Source: an uncultured Eubacteriales bacterium
GTDB taxonomy: Bacteria > Bacillota > Clostridia > Lachnospirales > Lachnospiraceae
DNA length: 64,000 nt
NCBI GenBank assembly: GCA_949283695.1
Contig: CASDTX010000063.1
Coordinates: 1 to 64,000, forward strand
Direction: 5' to 3'
The stretch's first letter is position 1; the number at the start of each line of letters is the position of its first letter. Below are positions 4,516 through 38,704 of this stretch, in pieces. The translations under genes were made by a program, and so were the position numbers. The notes below the pieces were generated by a model. It saw only the letters and a program-made list of their open reading frames with translations, made no database searches and was not told the origin of the DNA.

Positions 4516-7266
4516 ATGAAAAAGGAGGATTTCACACCAAAAGAATGGGAATTGATGCAGGATTACATGAAATATGCTCCGAAAGAGCCGCGTGCAAATT
4601 TAATACAGCTGATCGGAAATATAGATCCCAGGGAGATGGAGAAGGGAGCGGACAGCTGGGCGTATATTTTCTGGAACAGGCAGTTAAGTGATGATCAGGT
4701 GGATTTTCTGCTGAATTTTAAGTTAAGAGTTCCGCTGTATATGGATGAACTGGCGGCGAAGGCTGATATGACGGTCCGGGAAGCTGCGCTTATGGCAGAT
4801 GAATTAGCCCACATCGGAATTATTGAGTATTGGGCAGATGAAAAAGGGGTAGAACGAGTCACGCTTCCTATTTTCTGTGTCGGCAGTTTTGAGCAGGCTA
4901 TGGGAAATGACTGGCGGATGCAGAAGTACCCTGAAATGACGGTGGCATTTACCCATTACACAACAGAGTCGTCAACGACGAATGGTCCGTACCTGCCTAT
5001 GAGTAATCACGGGGTTCACCGCGTCGTTCCGGTGGAGGCTTCGATTGAGAATGAAACACGCAGGGCGGATTGGGAAGAAATATCAACGCTGATAGAAAAT
5101 AGTGGGGATATTTATGCGGTATCGAAATGTGTGTGCCGAAAAATGTCTGAGCAGCGGGGCAAAGCGGCAGGGGAGACAGATTATGAGTGGTGCCTTTCCA
5201 TCGGACATTTCGCAGACTATCTGATCCGCACCGGAAAAGGGAAAAAAATCACGAAGGAGCAGTTCCTGGAGAAAATCAAACAGGCAGAGGAGCGGGGATT
5301 TGTCCACAATATCAGTAATGCGAATGGCACAATGCCGATCGAATATATCTGCAATTGTGACTATCAGACATGCTATACGATCCGTGCGGCAATGTATTCC
5401 CATAACCCGAGTCTGTGCCGCTCGAATTTCGTGGCAGAAGTGGATGAGACAAAATGTATGGCATGCGGCAGCTGTACCGAAGTCTGTCCGGCAAATGCGG
5501 TCCGGCTGGGGCAAAAGCTGCCGGATAAAATCTCAGGAGAAATTGTCTATGAAGACAGTAAAAATCCACATAATGAACTGATCTGGGGAGCAGAGCATCA
5601 TGATCCGGATTTCCTGCTCCACAGAGAAAACACGTGGTCAGAGACCGGAACCGCGCCTTGTAAATCAAATTGTCCGGCCCATATCGGCATTGCCGGATAT
5701 ATGCAGCTTGCGGCGCGCGGAAAATATCGTGAGGCTCTGGAACTGATCAAGAAGGACAACCCATTTCCGGCAATCTGCGGTTCGATCTGCAACCGGCGGT
5801 GTGAGCACGTATGTACCAGAGGCAGTCTGGATGAAGCGGTTGCGATTGACGAAGTAAAGAAATTTGTCGCATGGCAGGAACTGAAGGAAGAGAATCGTTA
5901 TGTGCCGAAGAAGATACACAATAAGGGCCATAAGATCGCAGTCATCGGCTCCGGACCGGCAGGTCTTTCCTGTGTGTATTATCTGGCAGTCTTAGGGCAT
6001 GATGTGACCGTATTCGAAAAGGAAGGCCAGCTTGGCGGTATGCTTCGCTATGGAATTCCGTCCTTCCATTTGGAGAAAGAGATTATAGACGCGGAGATTG
6101 ACGTACTCAGAAAACTCGGCGTGACATTCAGCCTTCGTATAGAAATCGGAAAAGACCGTACAATTGAAGAATTAAGACAGGATGGTTTCAAAGCGTTCTA
6201 TCTGGCAATCGGAGCACAGGCCGGCAGAAGGCTTAACATTGCGGGAGAAGATGCGGACGGCGTGATGACAGGTCTTGATTTCATGCGCAGGGCCGCGTTT
6301 GATGAGAAGGATCTGTCAGGCGGAAATGTGGTTGTGATCGGGGGCGGCAATGTTGCTGTAGATATCGCCAGGACCGCGGTCAGATGCGGTGCCGGCAGTG
6401 TCCGGATGTTCTGTCTGGAATCCCGGGAGATGATGCCTGCGTCTCCGGATGAAATCGCGCAGGCAGAGGAAGAGGGGATTCAGATCTGTCCCGGATGGGG
6501 ACCGAAAGAGATAACCGGGCAGGATGGAAAAGTAAAAGCAATACAATTCAAAAAATGTTTGAATACATTGGATGAACAAGGAAGATTCCGTCCTGAGTAT
6601 GACGAAAAAGAGACGTGTGAAGAGACGGCGGATCTTGTCATCACATGCGCGGGCCAAGTGATAGACTGGGGCGGGCTGCTTAAGAACAGTGAAGTAGAGA
6701 TCAGAGAGAACCGGACAGTCATAGCAGATCCTTTCACCTATCAGACAAAAGAAAAAGATATCTTTGCCGGCGGCGATGTATATACAGGGCCTAAATTTGC
6801 GATTGACGCGATCGCTGCAGGAAAGCAGGGCGCTCAATCACTTCACCGTTTCGTATGGGGACATGACCTCAGAAGAGGACGTGACAGGCTTGATTATCAT
6901 ACATATATGGATGCAGATCAGCTCGATTTAAGCCAGTATGATACCGCGAAGCGAGAAAAGGCAGAGATCGATGTAAAGAAGAAACTGACATTCATGGATG
7001 ACAGAAAAATCTTCACGCCGGAGCAGGTGAGAAAGGAAACCAGCCGCTGTCTGCACTGCGGCAAAGCGCATGTGGATCATGGGATGTGTTTGGGATGCGG
7101 TGTGTGCACAACCCGCTGCAAGTTTGACGCAATTCATTTGAAAAAGGTATTTGACTGTACACCTGTGCCCAGAGAGCGGTTGGGGGCGGATGTCGGCATG
7201 GAGATTGCAAGGCGGAAAGAACTGCTCGCAGGCAAGATGAAGGAAAAGGAAGAAACTCATGCATGA
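4516..7266 (+). CDS. Multidomain FeS/FAD NAD(P)-dependent oxidoreductase (GltD-like core)
   Basis: 916 residues from the ATG at 4516; AAAGGAG sits at 4502-4508. Order of parts: an N-terminal winged-helix-like region and Cys-rich segment; a ferredoxin motif CMACGSCTEVCP near residues 314-325; a GltD/dihydropyrimidine-dehydrogenase type domain (CKSNCPAHI, then CGSICNRRCEHVC); an FAD Rossmann motif IGSGPAGLSC near 475; a second dinucleotide fold IGGGNVAVDIA near 606; and a C-terminal ferredoxin (RCLHCGKA, then CLGCGVCTTRC near 857-868). It should pass electrons between NAD(P)H and a ferredoxin-like partner through several clusters. It overlaps hypA by 8 bases. A 9-bp hairpin (4454-4462/4478-4486) lies in the leader. 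The physiological partner is unknown. Confidence 0.85.
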   Translation: MKKEDFTPKEWELMQDYMKYAPKEPRANLIQLIGNIDPREMEKGADSWAYIFWNRQLSDDQVDFLLNFKLRVPLYMDELAAKADMTVREAALMADELAHIGIIEYWADEKGVERVTLPIFCVGSFEQAMGNDWRMQKYPEMTVAFTHYTTESSTTNGPYLPMSNHGVHRVVPVEASIENETRRADWEEISTLIENSGDIYAVSKCVCRKMSEQRGKAAGETDYEWCLSIGHFADYLIRTGKGKKITKEQFLEKIKQAEERGFVHNISNANGTMPIEYICNCDYQTCYTIRAAMYSHNPSLCRSNFVAEVDETKCMACGSCTEVCPANAVRLGQKLPDKISGEIVYEDSKNPHNELIWGAEHHDPDFLLHRENTWSETGTAPCKSNCPAHIGIAGYMQLAARGKYREALELIKKDNPFPAICGSICNRRCEHVCTRGSLDEAVAIDEVKKFVAWQELKEENRYVPKKIHNKGHKIAVIGSGPAGLSCVYYLAVLGHDVTVFEKEGQLGGMLRYGIPSFHLEKEIIDAEIDVLRKLGVTFSLRIEIGKDRTIEELRQDGFKAFYLAIGAQAGRRLNIAGEDADGVMTGLDFMRRAAFDEKDLSGGNVVVIGGGNVAVDIARTAVRCGAGSVRMFCLESREMMPASPDEIAQAEEEGIQICPGWGPKEITGQDGKVKAIQFKKCLNTLDEQGRFRPEYDEKETCEETADLVITCAGQVIDWGGLLKNSEVEIRENRTVIADPFTYQTKEKDIFAGGDVYTGPKFAIDAIAAGKQGAQSLHRFVWGHDLRRGRDRLDYHTYMDADQLDLSQYDTAKREKAEIDVKKKLTFMDDRKIFTPEQVRKETSRCLHCGKAHVDHGMCLGCGVCTTRCKFDAIHLKKVFDCTPVPRERLGADVGMEIARRKELLAGKMKEKEETHA

Positions 7267-33566: not shown

Positions 33567-34457
33567 CTATTTAACTTTAGTAGCATTGTCAGTTTCGATC
33601 TTATTCGGAACATTTTTCGATTTTTGATGCGCCGTATCATACCATTTCAGGAAATCCCCGAAAAGCTTTTCTTCCGCTTCGGCTCTGGCTTCCGCCGCAT
33701 CGTCAATCTGGTCATAGCCGCCCAGGTAATAGCATTTTTGCTGAAACATAATCTGGGCGATCCATTTATGGCGTTTCTTGCTGTAGTAAACGCCCCGCAC
33801 TCCGCTGGTATTTGTTTTATACATAATGCCAGGCTGAATCATCTCCACGCAGGTGCCGTTTTCATAGTGAAGATTATTTTGGGGCTGACGCAGGCATCCG
33901 CAGCTTCTTGTCCATCCGTTCTGCAGGTGAGACTGGCGTACATCCAGTTCCTTTCCACAGTCGCATTTGCAGTGCCAGAAATGGAATCCGTTCTCTTTGC
34001 GGGCATAAGACAGTACCGTCAATGCGCCGAAACGTTTCCCTATCCAGTCTTTTAAAGGCGGCTTTTTCCCACAGCCGCAGCTTCTCACTCCGCCGGTAAT
34101 CAGTCTTCGTTTTGTCGTCTCGATTTCCTTCCCGCACTCACATTGGCAGAGCCAGAGAGGATTGCCGTCCCTGGCTTTATTCCCGGAGCGGCCTTTGACC
34201 AACAGTTTCCCAAATTGATGTCCCGTTAAATCTTTGATTCCATCATAGGGAGAGGGTTCGCAGCCGCAGCTGAAAATGGCGCCCGGCTTTAACCGGCGGC
34301 TTTCCACGAACAGTTCCTCTCCGCATTCACAGCGGCAGCGCCATACCACGGCATCCCGCACACGCTGGTCTGTAGGCTCCAATACAGTCAGTTTTCCAAA
34401 ACGTTGTCCGGTAAGATCTTTTCCTTTCAAAACCTCACCCCCATCAACATCTGGCAT
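33567..34457 (-). CDS. Triple Cys-rich-repeat protein with AP2-like C-terminus
   Basis: 296 residues from the ATG at 34457; a TTG at 34430 behind GGGGGTGAGG is an alternative start. Three repeats of about 60 residues each read roughly (D/W)-[LI]-(T/G)-G-x-x-F-G-x-L-x-V, W-x-C-x-C-x-CG, and SCGC. They look like zinc-binding knuckles common in phage and homing-type proteins. The C-terminal 70 residues (TSGVRGVYYSKKRHKWIAQI, then YYLGGYDQIDDAAEARAEAE) are an AP2/integrase-like DNA-binding fold. It lies 23 bases behind the next gene, at the 3' end of the RiPP-like operon. Role unknown; a DNA-binding function is inferred from the fold only. Confidence 0.7.
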   Translation of the reverse strand: MPDVDGGEVLKGKDLTGQRFGKLTVLEPTDQRVRDAVVWRCRCECGEELFVESRRLKPGAIFSCGCEPSPYDGIKDLTGHQFGKLLVKGRSGNKARDGNPLWLCQCECGKEIETTKRRLITGGVRSCGCGKKPPLKDWIGKRFGALTVLSYARKENGFHFWHCKCDCGKELDVRQSHLQNGWTRSCGCLRQPQNNLHYENGTCVEMIQPGIMYKTNTSGVRGVYYSKKRHKWIAQIMFQQKCYYLGGYDQIDDAAEARAEAEEKLFGDFLKWYDTAHQKSKNVPNKIETDNATKVK

Positions 34458-34480
34458 TCATCATCGAAAAAGAAAACATC

Positions 34481-34849
34481 TTAAATATTTTTACTGTTAG
34501 TATTTCTATATTCTCGCAGCCGGCGGTAGAAGGTGGCTTCCGCCATGCCGCTTCGCCGCAGCGCTTCTTTTGTAGTGATGGCCTTATTCTCCAGTGCGTT
34601 TACAATGTCCGGAAAATCGTCCGGCGGCTCCACTCTCGGCCGTCCGAATTTCACGCCTTTGGCCTTTGCCGCTGCGATCCCATCCATCTGGCGCTGGTAA
34701 TCTCTGCCTTTATAATCACTCGGATCAATTCCGGCCTCATGCAGCCACACTGTTACAATGTGAACATCCGTTTCCAGGATATCGGCGATTTTTTTTGCCG
34801 TCATTCCTGTCTTTCCCAGGTTATGGGCAATGGTTTCGATCTCTGTCAT
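34481..34849 (-). CDS. HTH protein with serine-recombinase-like tail, no catalytic domain
   Basis: 122 residues. Residues 1-50 form a first HTH-like unit (MTAKKIADILETDVHIVTVW). Residues 52-71 (QRQMDGIAAAKAKGVKFGRP) and 90-113 (ALRRSGMAEATFYRRLREY) match the linker and DNA-binding helices at the end of Hin/resolvase-type serine recombinases. The catalytic N-terminal domain with its YxRVS motif is absent, so it cannot recombine DNA itself. It may regulate the operon or assist a recombinase in trans. The gene follows the second pqqD-type gene by 49 bases. Confidence 0.65.
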   Translation of the reverse strand: MTEIETIAHNLGKTGMTAKKIADILETDVHIVTVWLHEAGIDPSDYKGRDYQRQMDGIAAAKAKGVKFGRPRVEPPDDFPDIVNALENKAITTKEALRRSGMAEATFYRRLREYRNTNSKNI

Positions 34850-34898
34850 AAATGATGAAATACCGTCCTTTTCCTTTTTCTTGATCTGTTTCCGGCTG

Positions 34899-35165
34899 TT
34901 ACTCTTCTACGAATCCCAATAATTTCATCTCTTTGATCAGTCCTTCGACATCCGTTCTGGCAGTTTCTTCCTCCACATCAAAATGCTCTAATACAAGCCT
35001 GACCATTTCTTCTGTATCAGTTACTTCGTCGATATGCTCCCAAATAAAGACTGCCGTCCGATTAGGCGAAAATAACCCGTTAAAATTTTTCGTAGCCTCT
35101 CCGGCCGGAACGAGAATTGATTCCCCGGCGACTTTTCGGAGGATAAAATTTTTATTTCTTTTCAT
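34899..35165 (-). CDS. PqqD-family RiPP recognition protein 2
   Basis: 88 residues, the standard size of a stand-alone PqqD. Typical features are LRKVAGESILVPAGEAT, NRTAVFIWEHIDEVTD, and a C-terminal helix ending EMKLLGFVEE. Such proteins bind the leader of a ribosomal peptide and present it to a radical SAM maturase. It lies 33 bases behind the kinase-like gene, fourth after the precursor. Confidence 0.88.
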   Translation of the reverse strand: MKRNKNFILRKVAGESILVPAGEATKNFNGLFSPNRTAVFIWEHIDEVTDTEEMVRLVLEHFDVEEETARTDVEGLIKEMKLLGFVEE

Positions 35166-35198
35166 AATCTCTGATTTCTCCCATCTTTTTTGTGCGGA

Positions 35199-36104
35199 TC
35201 ATATTCCGCTTTCTCTCATCTGCACAGACTCCAATGCAGGGCTTTCATATAAAACTTTCTCTAATGTATCTACAGCTCCCGGAGTTTTCGTGCACAGAAA
35301 GCGGTAGATCTTTATTTCATCTGATAATTCCGTGACCCAATTCAAGGTTTTTCGCACAAATGCGTCATTCCAGCTGTTCACTGTTAATTCACTGTATATT
35401 GCGGTAAACGCTGGATGCCCGTAAATTCGTTCGGCGTGATCTTCCGGCGCCTGCCGCAGGACCACAATGGCTTTGATCGGCGCCTGCCGGTTCAGATGGA
35501 TATTGGAGGTACCGCAAAACGGCGCCCCATAAGCATGCCAGATGCCGTTTCTTTTGCGGATGATGGTACGGTCTCCGTTAATAATCTCCGCGCCTCTGTA
35601 CATCCGCCACAGATCCCCCTGTGTTGATTTTCCCGTGCCGGAGGGAGCTGTGAACAGAATCGCCTGCCCGTCTTTCTGTATATGGCAGCTGTGCAGGACC
35701 ATGGCGTCAAATCTCATCAGAAGCTTTTCAATGCAAAAAAAGTTCTCCAGATGATTTCCCCGCTCAATTTCTTCTTTCAGCCATTCCACACTCAGATAAT
35801 GGCAGACACCGCTGTCTGCTCCTAGAATGGTAACGGCATGATAATATCCATCATGGATATGAAAGCAGGCCTCCATCCCTTCTGGATCCTGATAGTAGTG
35901 GAATTTGGCGATTTCCCCGACGAAAACAGGATATTGTTCCAGAAAGGAAGGGATATTATCCGTCTGGCAGAATGTCAATGTATAATCCGGTTCACACGGC
36001 TCCACAAGGAACTCTCGCATATAACTGTTTTGTGCCGGGAAAACAAAATCAAACACCACACGCAGTACAAGATCTGCGATCCGGTAATAGGCTTCGCTGC
36101 TCAT
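35199..36104 (-). CDS. HPr-kinase-like ATPase of a RiPP cluster
   Basis: 301 residues. P-loop APSGTGKS (153-160), GDR (177-179) and GAPFCGTS (193-200) match the C-terminal half of HPr kinase/phosphorylase. The N-terminal 140 residues are unlike HprK, and the HPr-binding signature was not seen. HprK-like proteins occur next to PqqD and radical SAM genes in other RiPP clusters, and in paeninodin-type lasso clusters one phosphorylates the precursor's last Ser. The candidate precursor here also ends in Ser. The start overlaps the maturase stop by 4 bases, so translation is coupled. Confidence 0.8.
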   Translation of the reverse strand: MSSEAYYRIADLVLRVVFDFVFPAQNSYMREFLVEPCEPDYTLTFCQTDNIPSFLEQYPVFVGEIAKFHYYQDPEGMEACFHIHDGYYHAVTILGADSGVCHYLSVEWLKEEIERGNHLENFFCIEKLLMRFDAMVLHSCHIQKDGQAILFTAPSGTGKSTQGDLWRMYRGAEIINGDRTIIRKRNGIWHAYGAPFCGTSNIHLNRQAPIKAIVVLRQAPEDHAERIYGHPAFTAIYSELTVNSWNDAFVRKTLNWVTELSDEIKIYRFLCTKTPGAVDTLEKVLYESPALESVQMRESGI

Positions 36105-37243
36105 AGGGATCCCTCCGCTTTCCTAAGCTGTGCAAGTTCCTCCTGAAGAAGGGCTGAATAATGGCGGCAGAATTCACACAGGTATTCCGGCTCCCCGTCA
36201 ACCGCTCCGGTCTCACACAATGCTCCGGCGGCACAGACAGGACAGATGCCAAGATACCGGCAGGTGCTGCACTTTATAGAAAGCTGGACTTCCCGCGTAT
36301 AGCGTGATATTGCTTTCCACGCATCCGCAAAGCTTTCCGTCTCCAGGCTGTGGATATCATCGTCCGCCACACCGCAGCCAGACACTTCCCCTTTCCAGTT
36401 GATCCAGAACGCGCTGACGCCGCTGCGGCAATGCATGTGCGGATCTCCATAATGGCGGTGGTTTTCCGGATGTTCGATATCCCTGCAGGCAGCTTCCAAA
36501 AAGTCCCGCCAGATCTTCCTGTCCCCGCCGCTTTGATCTCTGCGGTAACGCAGCGCTGTCTTTGCCATCTCTTCAGGAGTAAACCGTTCCTGCTCCACAG
36601 GTTTCTCTGCTTCTTTCCGCAGAGGCGGAAACATATAATAAGAAAGCTGCATCGGAACCTGAAACTGATTGCAGATCTCCTTCATCTTTTCATAATCGTC
36701 CATCATAGAGGGCACCAGTACTCCGTGGACACGGAACGGGATATTGTATTCCTTTAAGAGAGAAAATGCCCGTATTACCCGCTCATATCCGTCACGCCGT
36801 CCGGTTAAGCGTTCGTAAGTTTCCGGCGAAGCTCCATAAAGAGAAATATTCAAACGGCGCGGAGGCTCCTTTGCCAGCCACTCCACCGTATCGCGGTCCA
36901 GCATCGTACCATTGGTATTGAGTACGATATGGATTCCTTTTTGCTTCAGTTTCGTATACAGTGTACGAAAGCCGGGATAGGTGAAAATCTCGCCGCCTGT
37001 CAGCAGGCAAAACAGCATCCCCGCTTCTATGGCCTGATCAACCGCATTCTCCCAGAAATCGATCGACTTTAATCCGCCATGCGCAAGAACCGCCTCTTGA
37101 TTCTGACGGACGTAACACATCTTACAATCCAGGTTGCAGACGGGCGTCAGCTCAATCGTCCCCATCAAAGGCAGATTCATGGAATCTGCTTTTCGAAATA
37201 AAAACTCATTATAGGTCTCCCGGAATTCATCGGCCATATCCAT
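36101..37243 (-). CDS. Radical SAM/SPASM peptide maturase
   Basis: 380 residues. The radical SAM cluster motif is CNLDCKMC (C36, C40, C43) following IELTPV. A GGE-type SAM motif is at LLTGGEIFTYP. The C-terminal SPASM region holds nine Cys, including CSTC, GICPVC and CEFC, enough for two auxiliary FeS clusters. Enzymes of this type make C-C, C-S or epimer modifications in ribosomal peptides. Its gene is separated from the precursor gene by 94 bases with a hairpin. The residue modified cannot be deduced. Confidence 0.9.
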   Translation of the reverse strand: MDMADEFRETYNEFLFRKADSMNLPLMGTIELTPVCNLDCKMCYVRQNQEAVLAHGGLKSIDFWENAVDQAIEAGMLFCLLTGGEIFTYPGFRTLYTKLKQKGIHIVLNTNGTMLDRDTVEWLAKEPPRRLNISLYGASPETYERLTGRRDGYERVIRAFSLLKEYNIPFRVHGVLVPSMMDDYEKMKEICNQFQVPMQLSYYMFPPLRKEAEKPVEQERFTPEEMAKTALRYRRDQSGGDRKIWRDFLEAACRDIEHPENHRHYGDPHMHCRSGVSAFWINWKGEVSGCGVADDDIHSLETESFADAWKAISRYTREVQLSIKCSTCRYLGICPVCAAGALCETGAVDGEPEYLCEFCRHYSALLQEELAQLRKAEGSL

Positions 37244-37281
37244 ATCACTTCACACCCTTTCCGCATCATGCATAAGACAAC

Positions 37282-37312
37282 AAAAGGAAGGCAGTCGGAC
37301 CACCCTCCTTTT
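37282..37312 (-). terminator. Attenuator-like hairpin between precursor and maturase
   Basis: On the minus strand AAAAGGA pairs with TCCTTTT around a GC-rich middle, followed by TTGTTGTC. It would end most transcripts after the precursor gene and let some read through. This is a common way to make more peptide than enzyme. Confidence 0.55.
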
Positions 37313-37337
37313 CATTGCTTAATTTCCATATAATCTA

Positions 37338-37817
37338 TTAGCTTCCTACATTTACTTCTTCAATACTTGTACCGTATAAAGGTGCAATCTGAACATGATA
37401 GTTTGTGCCGCCGCCATGACCACCATGACCGCCGCCAAAACCGTTGCTATGATTTGTCGTATGTGTAAGCACGCCATTCTCCACACTAAAGCAACTTGTG
37501 CCACCAGCTGAACAGTAGTAGAGCAGTCCAATCGCACCAGATGGGGCGGTATATGTACGATTTCCTCCCGAGCTTCCCCATGTCCCTCCGGAATGATTAG
37601 AATGGCTAAAAGAATTCGATGCCAAGGCTTGTGTCGCGCTTGTCGTTCCTGCCACTCTGGAACAACTTGTTGTAAGTACATTTGTAGTATCAGTTTGCGG
37701 ACCAATCATACAATCGAACACAATAGGTTTATCCACCTCATCACCACATGCAGCAATCGCTCTGTTAACGGTAAATTCTTCTACCATTATCATTGGGCGT
37801 TCATATACCTCTTTCAT
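37338..37817 (-). CDS. Candidate RiPP precursor, 159 residues
   Basis: Not recognised as a named family. The first 25 residues (MKEVYERPMIMVEEF, then TVNRAIAACG) look like the leader of a class of Clostridia peptides that start MKK-x-YEKP-x-x-x-x-EEF. The rest is Ser/Thr/Asn/Gly-rich with five Cys (C24, C36, C52, C102, C109). There is a His-rich stretch around 71-75 and a Gly/His run at 126-141 (GFGGGHGGHGGG). The last residue is Ser. The long core region is unusual, since most precursors are under 80 residues. Its ATG overlaps the stop of the upstream pqqD-type gene by 4 bases. A Gly-rich structural or metal-binding peptide is possible. Confidence 0.7.
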   Translation of the reverse strand: MKEVYERPMIMVEEFTVNRAIAACGDEVDKPIVFDCMIGPQTDTTNVLTTSCSRVAGTTSATQALASNSFSHSNHSGGTWGSSGGNRTYTAPSGAIGLLYYCSAGGTSCFSVENGVLTHTTNHSNGFGGGHGGHGGGTNYHVQIAPLYGTSIEEVNVGS

Positions 37818-38236
37818 AATTTGTTTACCTCCTCTAATATCTTACATTCCAATGCATCTGCTGCGAAGCTTTCTACTGAGCTTCGCATTTTATCTTCTGC
37901 CACACCATATTCCAGCATTCCCCGGATGACTACATCTTCCAGAGTACTGGGCTGTTCAAAACTCTTCCAGATAAAAACTGCCGAACTGTCTGGGGCCGTC
38001 ACCGTGTTCTCCGGCAGGGCTTCACATTCCGTTCCGGCCGGGACAATCGCATATTCTCCGGCGATTTCCCTGATTATGTACCCCGATTTGATCCGGTAGT
38101 TCTTCTTTTCCCTTTGATAACTGTCACCGCTGAGATGTCTGGATAACTCGTCATCGGACAGCTTTGCAAGTTCGCTGCCGCTCAGTCCGCCTGGATTACG
38201 GACAAAGTGGTATTCCGGTCTTTTATATTCTTTCAC
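37814..38236 (-). CDS. PqqD-family RiPP recognition protein 1, with N-terminal extension
   Basis: 140 residues from a GTG at 38236 (AAGGTG about 6 bases upstream). Residues about 50-140 are PqqD-like (IIREIAGEYAIVPAGTE, SSAVFIWKSFEQP). The first 50 residues are an extra part starting MKEYKRPEYHF and containing LSGSELAKLSDDELSRHLSG. That start echoes the start of the precursor (MKEVYERP). It is the first gene of the operon and lies directly downstream of the inverted-repeat segment at 38284-38452. Confidence 0.8.
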   Translation of the reverse strand: MKEYKRPEYHFVRNPGGLSGSELAKLSDDELSRHLSGDSYQREKKNYRIKSGYIIREIAGEYAIVPAGTECEALPENTVTAPDSSAVFIWKSFEQPSTLEDVVIRGMLEYGVAEDKMRSSVESFAADALECKILEEVNKL

Positions 38237-38283: not shown

Positions 38284-38452
38284 GTCAAATAGTACACTTT
38301 ATGACTGTTGACGAAATCTGTTTCCATTCCTCTTCCAAATGTTGGAAAAGCAAGATTATTCTCCCAGATAAACTAAAAAAAGCTTGCGTTTCCAGGAATC
38401 ATGAAGTATAATGTTATCTGTAATTTTACTGTTATAAAGTGTACTATTTGAC
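38284..38452. repeat. 169-bp inverted-repeat-bounded segment: candidate invertible promoter
   Basis: Perfect 19-bp inverted repeats (38284-38302 and 38434-38452, outer ends GTCAAATAGTACACTTTAT; 22 bp with one mismatch). Between them lie a strong plus-strand promoter and a 15-bp dyad TTCCAAATGTTGGAA (38333-38347). No obvious target-site duplication flanks it. Possible identities: a recombinase-inverted promoter switch for the RiPP-like operon, or a MITE-like element. The outward ends read TTGAC, a usable -35. Confidence 0.7.
38384..38412 (+). promoter_or_regulatory. Promoter inside the inverted-repeat segment, facing away from the operon
   Basis: -35 TTGCGT (38384-38389), 17-base spacer, perfect -10 TATAAT (38407-38412). 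It points to the right, where the nearest genes are all on the minus strand. No equally good minus-strand promoter was seen in the segment. Confidence 0.7.
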
Positions 38453-38455
38453 AAT

Positions 38456-38704
38456 TTATTTTTTCGCTGTTTTGTACATCCTTGCCCTCCGGTAAAACGT
38501 GGATTCCCTCATTCCGCACCGTTTAAGGGCTTCCGGGATGTTTTTTTTCTGCTCACGGCTGGTGACACGGATAGAACCATGCGCTGCTGTCAATAGTTCC
38601 TCCTTTCCTGACGGACCAAAGGAAAAAGTTCCTGTCCGCCCCGTTCTGTGTGCCTGCTTCTCGCCGGAAAGCAAAAAAAGACAGTGCATCGTCTTCTGAC
38701 ACAC
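38456..38704 (-). CDS. Small protein with recombinase-like C-terminal HTH, possibly a remnant
   Basis: 82 residues. The last 35 (NIPEALKRCGMRESTFYRRA region) match the DNA-binding end of serine recombinases, as in the 34481-34849 protein. The first half (GEKQAHRTGRTGTFSFGPSG) looks like a degraded version of the AKAKGVKFGRP linker. No ribosome site was seen at the ATG. It may be a relic of a second copy of that gene or a real small regulator. Confidence 0.4.
   Translation of the reverse strand: MCQKTMHCLFLLSGEKQAHRTGRTGTFSFGPSGKEELLTAAHGSIRVTSREQKKNIPEALKRCGMRESTFYRRARMYKTAKK

Follow-up and report, generated by a model that had tools for sequence, protein, structure and literature searches.

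The window, the whole 64,000-nucleotide stretch of contig CASDTX010000063.1 from an uncultured Lachnospiraceae bacterium, carries on its minus strand (33567-38236) seven genes that form a candidate operon for a ribosomally synthesized and post-translationally modified peptide (RiPP). With moderate confidence, the whole is best explained as a phase-variable RiPP operon for a radical S-adenosylmethionine (SAM)-containing kind of phosphorylated peptide, in which radical SAM modification guided by a RiPP recognition element (RRE) would be combined with phosphorylation of the C-terminal serine. This reading is carried by a gene set that recurs in gut Clostridia, by a serine that is nearly constant at the end of precursors picked by their leader motif, and by a promoter-like segment between inverted sites that lies in opposite orientations in related loci. 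The operon is laid out as follows.

37814-38236, minus strand: PqqD1, 140 amino acids, GTG start; Pfam PqqD match at 2e-7
37338-37817, minus strand: precursor, 159 amino acids; leader VYERPMIMVEEFTVNRAIAAC, long core rich in Cys, Gly, Ser and His, C-terminal Ser (VNVGS)
37282-37312, minus strand: terminator-like hairpin of 14 pairs, between precursor and maturase
36101-37243, minus strand: radical SAM/SPASM maturase, 380 amino acids; Pfam Radical_SAM match at 5.5e-25
35199-36104, minus strand: HprK-like kinase, 301 amino acids; fold predicted from a model
34899-35165, minus strand: PqqD2, 88 amino acids; Pfam PqqD match at 6.9e-15
34481-34849, minus strand: helix-turn-helix (HTH) protein, 122 amino acids, related to the C-terminus of serine recombinases
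33567-34457, minus strand: Cys-repeat/AP2-domain protein; AP2 match at 5e-6, below the Pfam cut-off

All seven open reading frames (ORFs) listed in a sequence-only reading of this DNA were found again, as were its 4-base overlaps, which join PqqD1 to the precursor and the radical SAM gene to the HprK-like gene; elsewhere the genes lie 94, 33, 49 and 23 bases apart. The first of these gaps, between precursor and maturase, contains the terminator-like hairpin, possibly an attenuator; terminator-like sites number three in the stretch scanned against a mean of 1.3 (standard deviation 1.2) in shuffles.

A family of radical SAM operons with an HprK-like kinase

The maturase was used as query in 61 genomes, in the window's genus, in 397 genomes of its family and in GTDB contigs. 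It matched in 27 of 58 genomes of the genus (E 1e-40, more distant subgroups counted in) and in 28 of the 397 family genomes (E 1e-100, its own genome included); in the GTDB survey the best 80 of 500 maturase loci were retained, many of which end at contig boundaries. An HprK-like gene was counted in 73 of the 80, PqqD in 64 and a precursor with the strict leader motif in 60, followed by ATP-binding cassette (ABC) genes (31), SpI (28) and nucleoside triphosphate (NTP) transferase (27), a recurrence beyond a chance grouping; the constancy of the maturase counts neither way because the loci were collected with it. The fullest relatives comprise an RRE protein (PqqD), a precursor, a radical SAM enzyme, an HprK-like kinase, an NTP_transf_5 protein, an ABC exporter and an S24-type peptidase; in locus L032 (loci, genomes and contigs of the survey are given as L, G and C) the neighbours are a 417-amino-acid NTP_transf_5 protein (2.4e-50) and a 595-amino-acid ABC exporter. 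The operon is thus one member of a radical SAM/SPASM RiPP family spread among gut Clostridia, and the earlier description of it as RiPP-like is upheld by the recurrence of the gene set across many of these organisms.

The window's own genome holds two further sets. The second (L051, G000:C46) has a PqqD, a 102-amino-acid precursor ending in NPNAS and a 173-amino-acid maturase fragment, and continues with another PqqD, a 363-amino-acid maturase, HprK and an S24-type peptidase; a single, palindromic copy of the inversion-site pattern lies within its first PqqD ORF, the partner copy being absent. The third (L047, G000:C23) consists of PqqD, radical SAM, a precursor ending in DKS and HprK. A further subgroup (L052, L056-L060) has PqqD, radical SAM, HprK and ABC genes.

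Precursors were picked by a strict leader motif, leaving the C-terminal end unused and dropping ORFs that overlap labelled genes; this replaced an earlier, looser expression, which had picked up 118 ORFs in the vicinity of the genes, with Ser last in 88 and many of the others chance-like. The strict motif yielded 97 ORFs, 89 of them distinct (73 in the GTDB loci, 16 only in other genomes), a set that excludes the window precursor and those of L168, L171 and L172. Ser is the last residue in 85 of the 89 (the exceptions end in SV, SV, SA and SSI), as against 15 of the 479 remaining labelled genes in the loci (13 of 450 once duplicates are removed). The penultimate residue is far more variable, the commonest occurring in 20 of the 89, and because this preceding residue is so much less constant, the constancy of the Ser is not plain relatedness. 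Outside the set, the window precursor ends in VNVGS and those of L168, L171 and L172 in QIS, SSSW and AKS. By length the distinct precursors fall into 59 long (125-157 amino acids) and 30 short ones (79-103 amino acids); one long-core group has common motifs such as CGxTHEA and HCTTNLDMDSWETAKS. At most 1.5 kb away and in the same direction, 16 of the 30 short precursors (L037, L038, L039 and L045 among these loci) have an ORF of >800 amino acids, as does one of the 59 long ones; that of L037 matches a bacterial Ig domain, and no sortase-type end was seen among those beside short precursors.

Neither Pfam nor NCBIfam gave a match to the window precursor; none of ten relatives' precursors has an NCBIfam match at 0.1, and of eight scanned in Pfam seven lack a match and one has a match below the cut-off. 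Its leader shows YxxP as YERP, with the remainder YERPMIMVEEFTVNRAIAAC. It is 61% identical (blastp) to a precursor in L061 (3964-4407), with 66% of aligned residues conserved, nonsynonymous and synonymous divergence (dN, dS) of 0.28 and 0.72, and five Cys in common. The frame which the sequence-only reading had taken for the precursor is therefore conserved in a related cluster, and the lack of conservation that would have spoken against it did not arise. Window-type precursors were matched in four of the 397 family genomes (E 0.001, its own included); beyond its own, only the match in G184 could be aligned as far as the core.

Twenty aligned maturases all have C36xxxC40xxC43 and Cys 272, 290, 325, 328, 334, 337 and 356, an arrangement we take to be that of enzymes with two auxiliary clusters; the SPASM match in Pfam is weak (0.042, below cut-off). 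Among solved structures the maturase profile comes closest to SkfB (best), cytosylglucuronate decarboxylase, 5v1q, anSME, MoaA and PqqE, and in NCBIfam the enzyme is similar to AlbA. dN is far below dS for the maturase, PqqD2 and the HTH gene by a simple method, under which several genes are near saturation and dS is not computable for HprK and AP2. The kinase stays below all Pfam and NCBIfam cut-offs, with a weak HprK profile match; its model (pLDDT 91) predicts a phosphoenolpyruvate carboxykinase (PEPCK)/HPr-kinase fold. Compared alone with PDB sequences the window kinase gave a chance-level match only; profile and model gave better ones. Invariant in 58 sequences are H138, G158-K159-x-T161, L165-W166, D178 and G198; set against the His-Lys-Asp-Asp motif described for lasso kinases, H138, K159 and D178 may correspond, and a second invariant Asp was not seen in the 58.

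The profile of 26 PqqD proteins matches LppB in the LppB-LppA complex (9x8z, 2.5e-7) in a near tie with TbiB1 (4e-7), and the PqqD1 model resembles TbiB1. PqqD1, which is 71% identical to its counterpart in L085, has an N-terminal extension of about 45 amino acids that opens with a leader-like YxxP motif (MKEYKRPEYHF); the same type of extension occurs in L085, L108 and L123. In the model, residues 1-20 are of low confidence (blocks 61 and 74) and without strand, and the idea that the extension is a leader mimic filling the protein's own RRE groove gains no support from it. PqqD2 is the likely partner RRE of the window precursor because it is found with the same precursor type in L061, where a 76% identical protein (6574-6840) stands with precursor, maturase and kinase. 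An RRE protein in L087 (1605-2030) has a YxxP-starting N-terminal extension dissimilar to that of PqqD1.

An apparently invertible promoter

Upstream of PqqD1 lies an inverted repeat that, with the recombinase remnant beside it, was absent from the sequence-only reading.

38284-38308, no strand: inverted-repeat arm on the operon side, TCAAATAGT-AC-ACTTTATGA
38384-38412, plus strand: promoter-like TTGCGT-17-TATAAT within the repeat, facing away from the operon (OFF)
38428-38452, no strand: inverted-repeat arm on the recombinase side, pairing with 38284-38308
38456-38704, minus strand: serine invertase remnant, most of the catalytic part lost

The repeat is 25 nt long, 92% complementary and 119 nt apart, and its best pair of 20-mers agrees at 19 of 20 positions, against 12-16 in 60 shuffles. 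The cassette of recombinase, PqqD, precursor, radical SAM and AP2 genes occurs in six distinct loci, namely the window, L034 (identical with L108, and lacking HprK), L040, L085, L123 and L168; L169 is a decayed cassette. Paired 20-bp sites were seen in five cassette loci; the sites of L085 are degenerate and its recombinase frame is broken. The centres of the site pairs carry AC and GT, and inversion of the Hin/Gin type requires such opposite central dinucleotides. The inner segment contains TTGCTT or TTGCGT-17-TATAAT (TACAAT in L040) in the window, L085, L123, L034 and L040; its direction is towards the operon in L085, L123 and L040, and the opposite in L034 and the window. When inner segments were aligned, the inverted over the same orientation gave 98/28 for L085 and the window, 116/26 for L034 and L123 and 69/40 for L034 and L040, and the same over the inverted gave 92/45 for L040 and L123 and 55/41 for L085 and L123. 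The two orientations come from a comparison of loci in different species and not from a single strain. From this comparison of sequences, segment 38384-38412 is apparently an invertible promoter and the operon phase-variable.

Full-length recombinase ORFs are present in L034, L040, L123 and L168 and, in the window's own genome, on contig C47 (16476-17090); the latter is 78% identical to the L040 invertase, has no such operon within the 17.5 kb of C47 examined, and could act in trans on the window sites. Tyrosine recombinases were found in seven distinct loci (nine ORFs, those of L087 and L117 being duplicates of L037 and L039). In L061 such a gene (PF00589) is flanked by 30-nt inverted repeats (90% complementary), and each arm directly precedes its own precursor, the two precursors being encoded on opposite strands; inversion there could select between them. 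Repeats surround such a gene beside the operon also in L047 (23 nt, 100%), L101 (25 nt, 88%) and L039 (29 nt, 83%); flanking repeats were not shown in the other three, L096 having a weak, non-flanking 20-nt repeat, L037 none convincing, and L138 being interrupted by a contig end.

Apparent exchange of modules

The operon looks chimeric in its sequence identities. Compared with L085 (Anaerostipes sp. 992a), the HTH protein is 72% and the AP2 protein 74% identical, close to the value for PqqD1, and the maturase 35%; compared with L061, on a contig binned as Thomasclavelia and possibly misbinned, the maturase is 87% and the kinase 80% identical, next to the values given above for precursor and PqqD2, and the other PqqD of L061 is 35% identical to PqqD1. 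At the DNA level, window positions 34899-37400 and 37662-37822 resemble L061; the similarity thus reaches from where PqqD2 ends to where the precursor starts, and is interrupted in the core. The simplest account would be that a block of precursor, maturase, kinase and PqqD2 moved into a frame of invertase, switch, PqqD1, HTH and AP2; since such a swap leaves two RREs, it would explain the two PqqD proteins in one operon.

The HTH protein had been taken for the tail of a recombinase, and its relation to the serine recombinase C-terminus stands; it is, however, a conserved stand-alone ORF, with a counterpart of the same length in L085 (9018-9386; dN 0.18, dS 1.95) and a similar ORF of 123 amino acids in L168. 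The AP2 protein is, judged by its sequence neighbours, part of the cassette frame: it is 71-75% identical in L085, L123 and L040 and single-copy in its own genome, and copies of at least 65% identity adjoin family-type maturases, save a lone fragment in G016 (L170). AP2/Cys-repeat matches (1e-20) occur in 20 of the 58 genomes of the genus, and the best-scoring copies at about 42-46% identity (G028, G033, G007, G080, G002) come from contigs where the genus-wide maturase search found no match. Less similar AP2/Cys-repeat proteins follow HprK and radical SAM genes in L097 and L114, with no recombinase gene.

Known systems, rival explanations and meaning

Where the sequence-only reading could name no class, the closest is that of the linear polyphosphorylated peptides (LPP), described in 2026 from the lpp cluster of Paenibacillus alginolyticus with an RRE, an HprK-like kinase and YxxP precursors of 35-200 amino acids; its kinase LppK phosphorylates S3 of the core, and the leader consensus is YxxPxVLxHQxIxFETxxS (PMC13381572). 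The window shares with LPP a discrete RRE of the LppB/TbiB1 kind (here two PqqD proteins), an HprK-like kinase (by predicted fold and weak profile match), the YxxP leader and the precursor length; only fuller relatives have NTP transferase, ABC exporter and S24-type peptidase as well, and L061 has the peptidase. In contrast, no NTP transferase, MsbA-like transporter or SpI peptidase stands in the window cluster, the leader departs from the consensus after YERP, and further differences are a radical SAM/SPASM maturase, an IAAC-type leader end, an inverted-repeat promoter element, a conserved Ser as last residue instead of S3 of the core, and an origin in gut Clostridia. Because cluster content and leader consensus differ and phosphorylation, which in LPP is multiple and the primary modification, is only predicted, the operon was not filed as LPP. 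In paeninodin and pseudomycoidin, kinases phosphorylate the conserved C-terminal Ser of the precursor, and in the latter an NTP transferase acts on the phosphate (PMC9266682); the family resembles these in pairing a conserved C-terminal Ser (85 of 89 precursors) with an HprK-like kinase (73 of 80 loci), whereas the window operon has a radical SAM enzyme and a core of about 135 residues. A term search of PMC8326336 found neither "kinase" nor "phosphorylat". Neither lasso cyclase nor B2 peptidase was matched in Pfam among the seven operon genes and the two ORFs just upstream.

SkfB, SuiB and PqqE are SPASM peptide maturases; the window maturase is like them in its CxxxCxxC motif, its seven further Cys and its place beside RRE proteins, and differs in low sequence similarity and in the kinase, C-terminal Ser and long precursor that accompany it. 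A PQQ-like cofactor pathway, considered on account of PqqD and radical SAM genes, was rejected, the relatives seeming to keep long cores and the C-terminal Ser. Hin/Gin-type promoter switches have a small serine recombinase gene beside an inverted site pair. Here too, inverted 20-bp sites with opposite centres flank a promoter-like segment beside a serine recombinase gene, and both orientations occur between loci; different are the position ahead of a RiPP operon and the local recombinase, a remnant.

On the phase-variable, phosphorylated-RiPP reading, an RRE, most likely PqqD2, would bind the YxxP leader and present the 159-residue precursor; the radical SAM/SPASM enzyme would modify the Cys-containing core, probably with thioether or carbon crosslinks, and the HprK-like enzyme would phosphorylate the C-terminal Ser. 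The leader would be cleaved near AAC and the product exported by S24-type peptidase and ABC exporter functions, borrowed in the case of the window cassette, and transcription would be set by the invertible promoter. Such borrowing of the missing functions is plausible: in each of the three sister genomes that carry the cassette (G003, G019, G074), matches to peptidase (30-32% identity), exporter and NTP transferase lie elsewhere.

Several observations weigh against this reading. The precursor of L171, a distant one of the window type, ends in SSSW, and in L052, L057, L058, L059 and L060, where HprK is present, the candidates lack the leader and end in M, T, G, S and G. Conversely, HprK was undetected in seven of the 80 loci, and Ser-ending precursors occur without it by the strict motif in L063, L081, L108 and L138, the last of which stops at a contig end, and by the looser one in L133. 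Family-type peptidase, exporter and NTP transferase genes are all absent from the window, and its genome, 79% complete, has SpI and no NTP transferase (1e-10) or ABC exporter (1e-60) of that type. All 50 matches listed for the kinase in VIA-align are PEPCKs, and its likeness to lasso and LPP kinases is indirect. As for the switch, the local invertase gene is a remnant; five of ten pairs of inner segments are not above shuffles; the segment of L168 matches no other in either orientation and lacks the TTGCKT form, having by eye TTGATT-17-TATAAT, also facing away from the operon. A consensus promoter scan did not list the 38384-38412 promoter, because its -35 hexamer matches at only three of six positions, and a repeat search did not list the site pair of L040. 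The chemistry of the operon and the inversion are predictions from sequence and models.

A smaller but real chance is given to the operon being a plain LPP family member, with the radical SAM gene as an accessory enzyme and nothing else new: the LPP core set has its counterparts in RRE and kinase here and in the NTP transferase, ABC exporter and peptidase of relatives, and YxxP leader and precursor length fit, whereas the terms "radical SAM", "SPASM" and "rSAM" are absent from the LPP text (PMC13381572) and both leader consensus and phosphosite differ as described. An ordinary thioether operon (sactipeptide or ranthipeptide), with the HprK-like protein regulatory or a chaperone and the peptide unphosphorylated, is improbable. 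The SPASM maturase with its invariant Cys, its profile proximity to SkfB among solved structures and similarity to AlbA, and the five Cys common to the window and L061 precursors would fit; the invariance of H138, K159 and D178 in the kinase-like sequences speaks against it, the C-terminal Ser bias would be left unexplained, and the window precursor is far longer than typical sactipeptide precursors. Very improbable is a decaying, silent locus whose promoter is locked away from the operon, with invertase deleted and exporter absent: the remnant at 38456-38704, the OFF orientation and the missing exporter and NTP transferase would agree with it, whereas all seven ORFs are open, dN is far below dS for three of the genes, and the full-length C47 invertase may supply the activity in trans.

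Under the phase-variable reading, the system would work like phosphorylated RiPPs of the LPP and paeninodin type with a radical SAM step added, and apparently under a phase-variable promoter. In a literature search no description was found of radical SAM, kinase and switchable promoter in combination, related gene sets being common, nor any report of a peptide natural product under a DNA-inversion switch; the RiPP group itself, widespread as it is (27 of 58 genomes of the genus, distant subgroups included), had no name there. A broader proposal, which we consider doubtful, is that gut Clostridia have a modular and phase-variable system of phosphorylated microproteins, secreted or bound to the surface: whole blocks of precursor, maturase and kinase would be exchanged between frames, and inversion by serine or tyrosine recombinases would decide if a precursor is made or, in L061, which one. 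The C-terminal phosphoserine, which an NTP transferase would extend in loci that have one, would be the point of attachment to an envelope polymer. If true, this would amount to antigenic variation carried by RiPPs. The reading makes a testable chemical prediction, a phosphate on the nearly invariant C-terminal Ser beside radical SAM chemistry, and the DNA-inversion switch, if true, could explain silence in culture.

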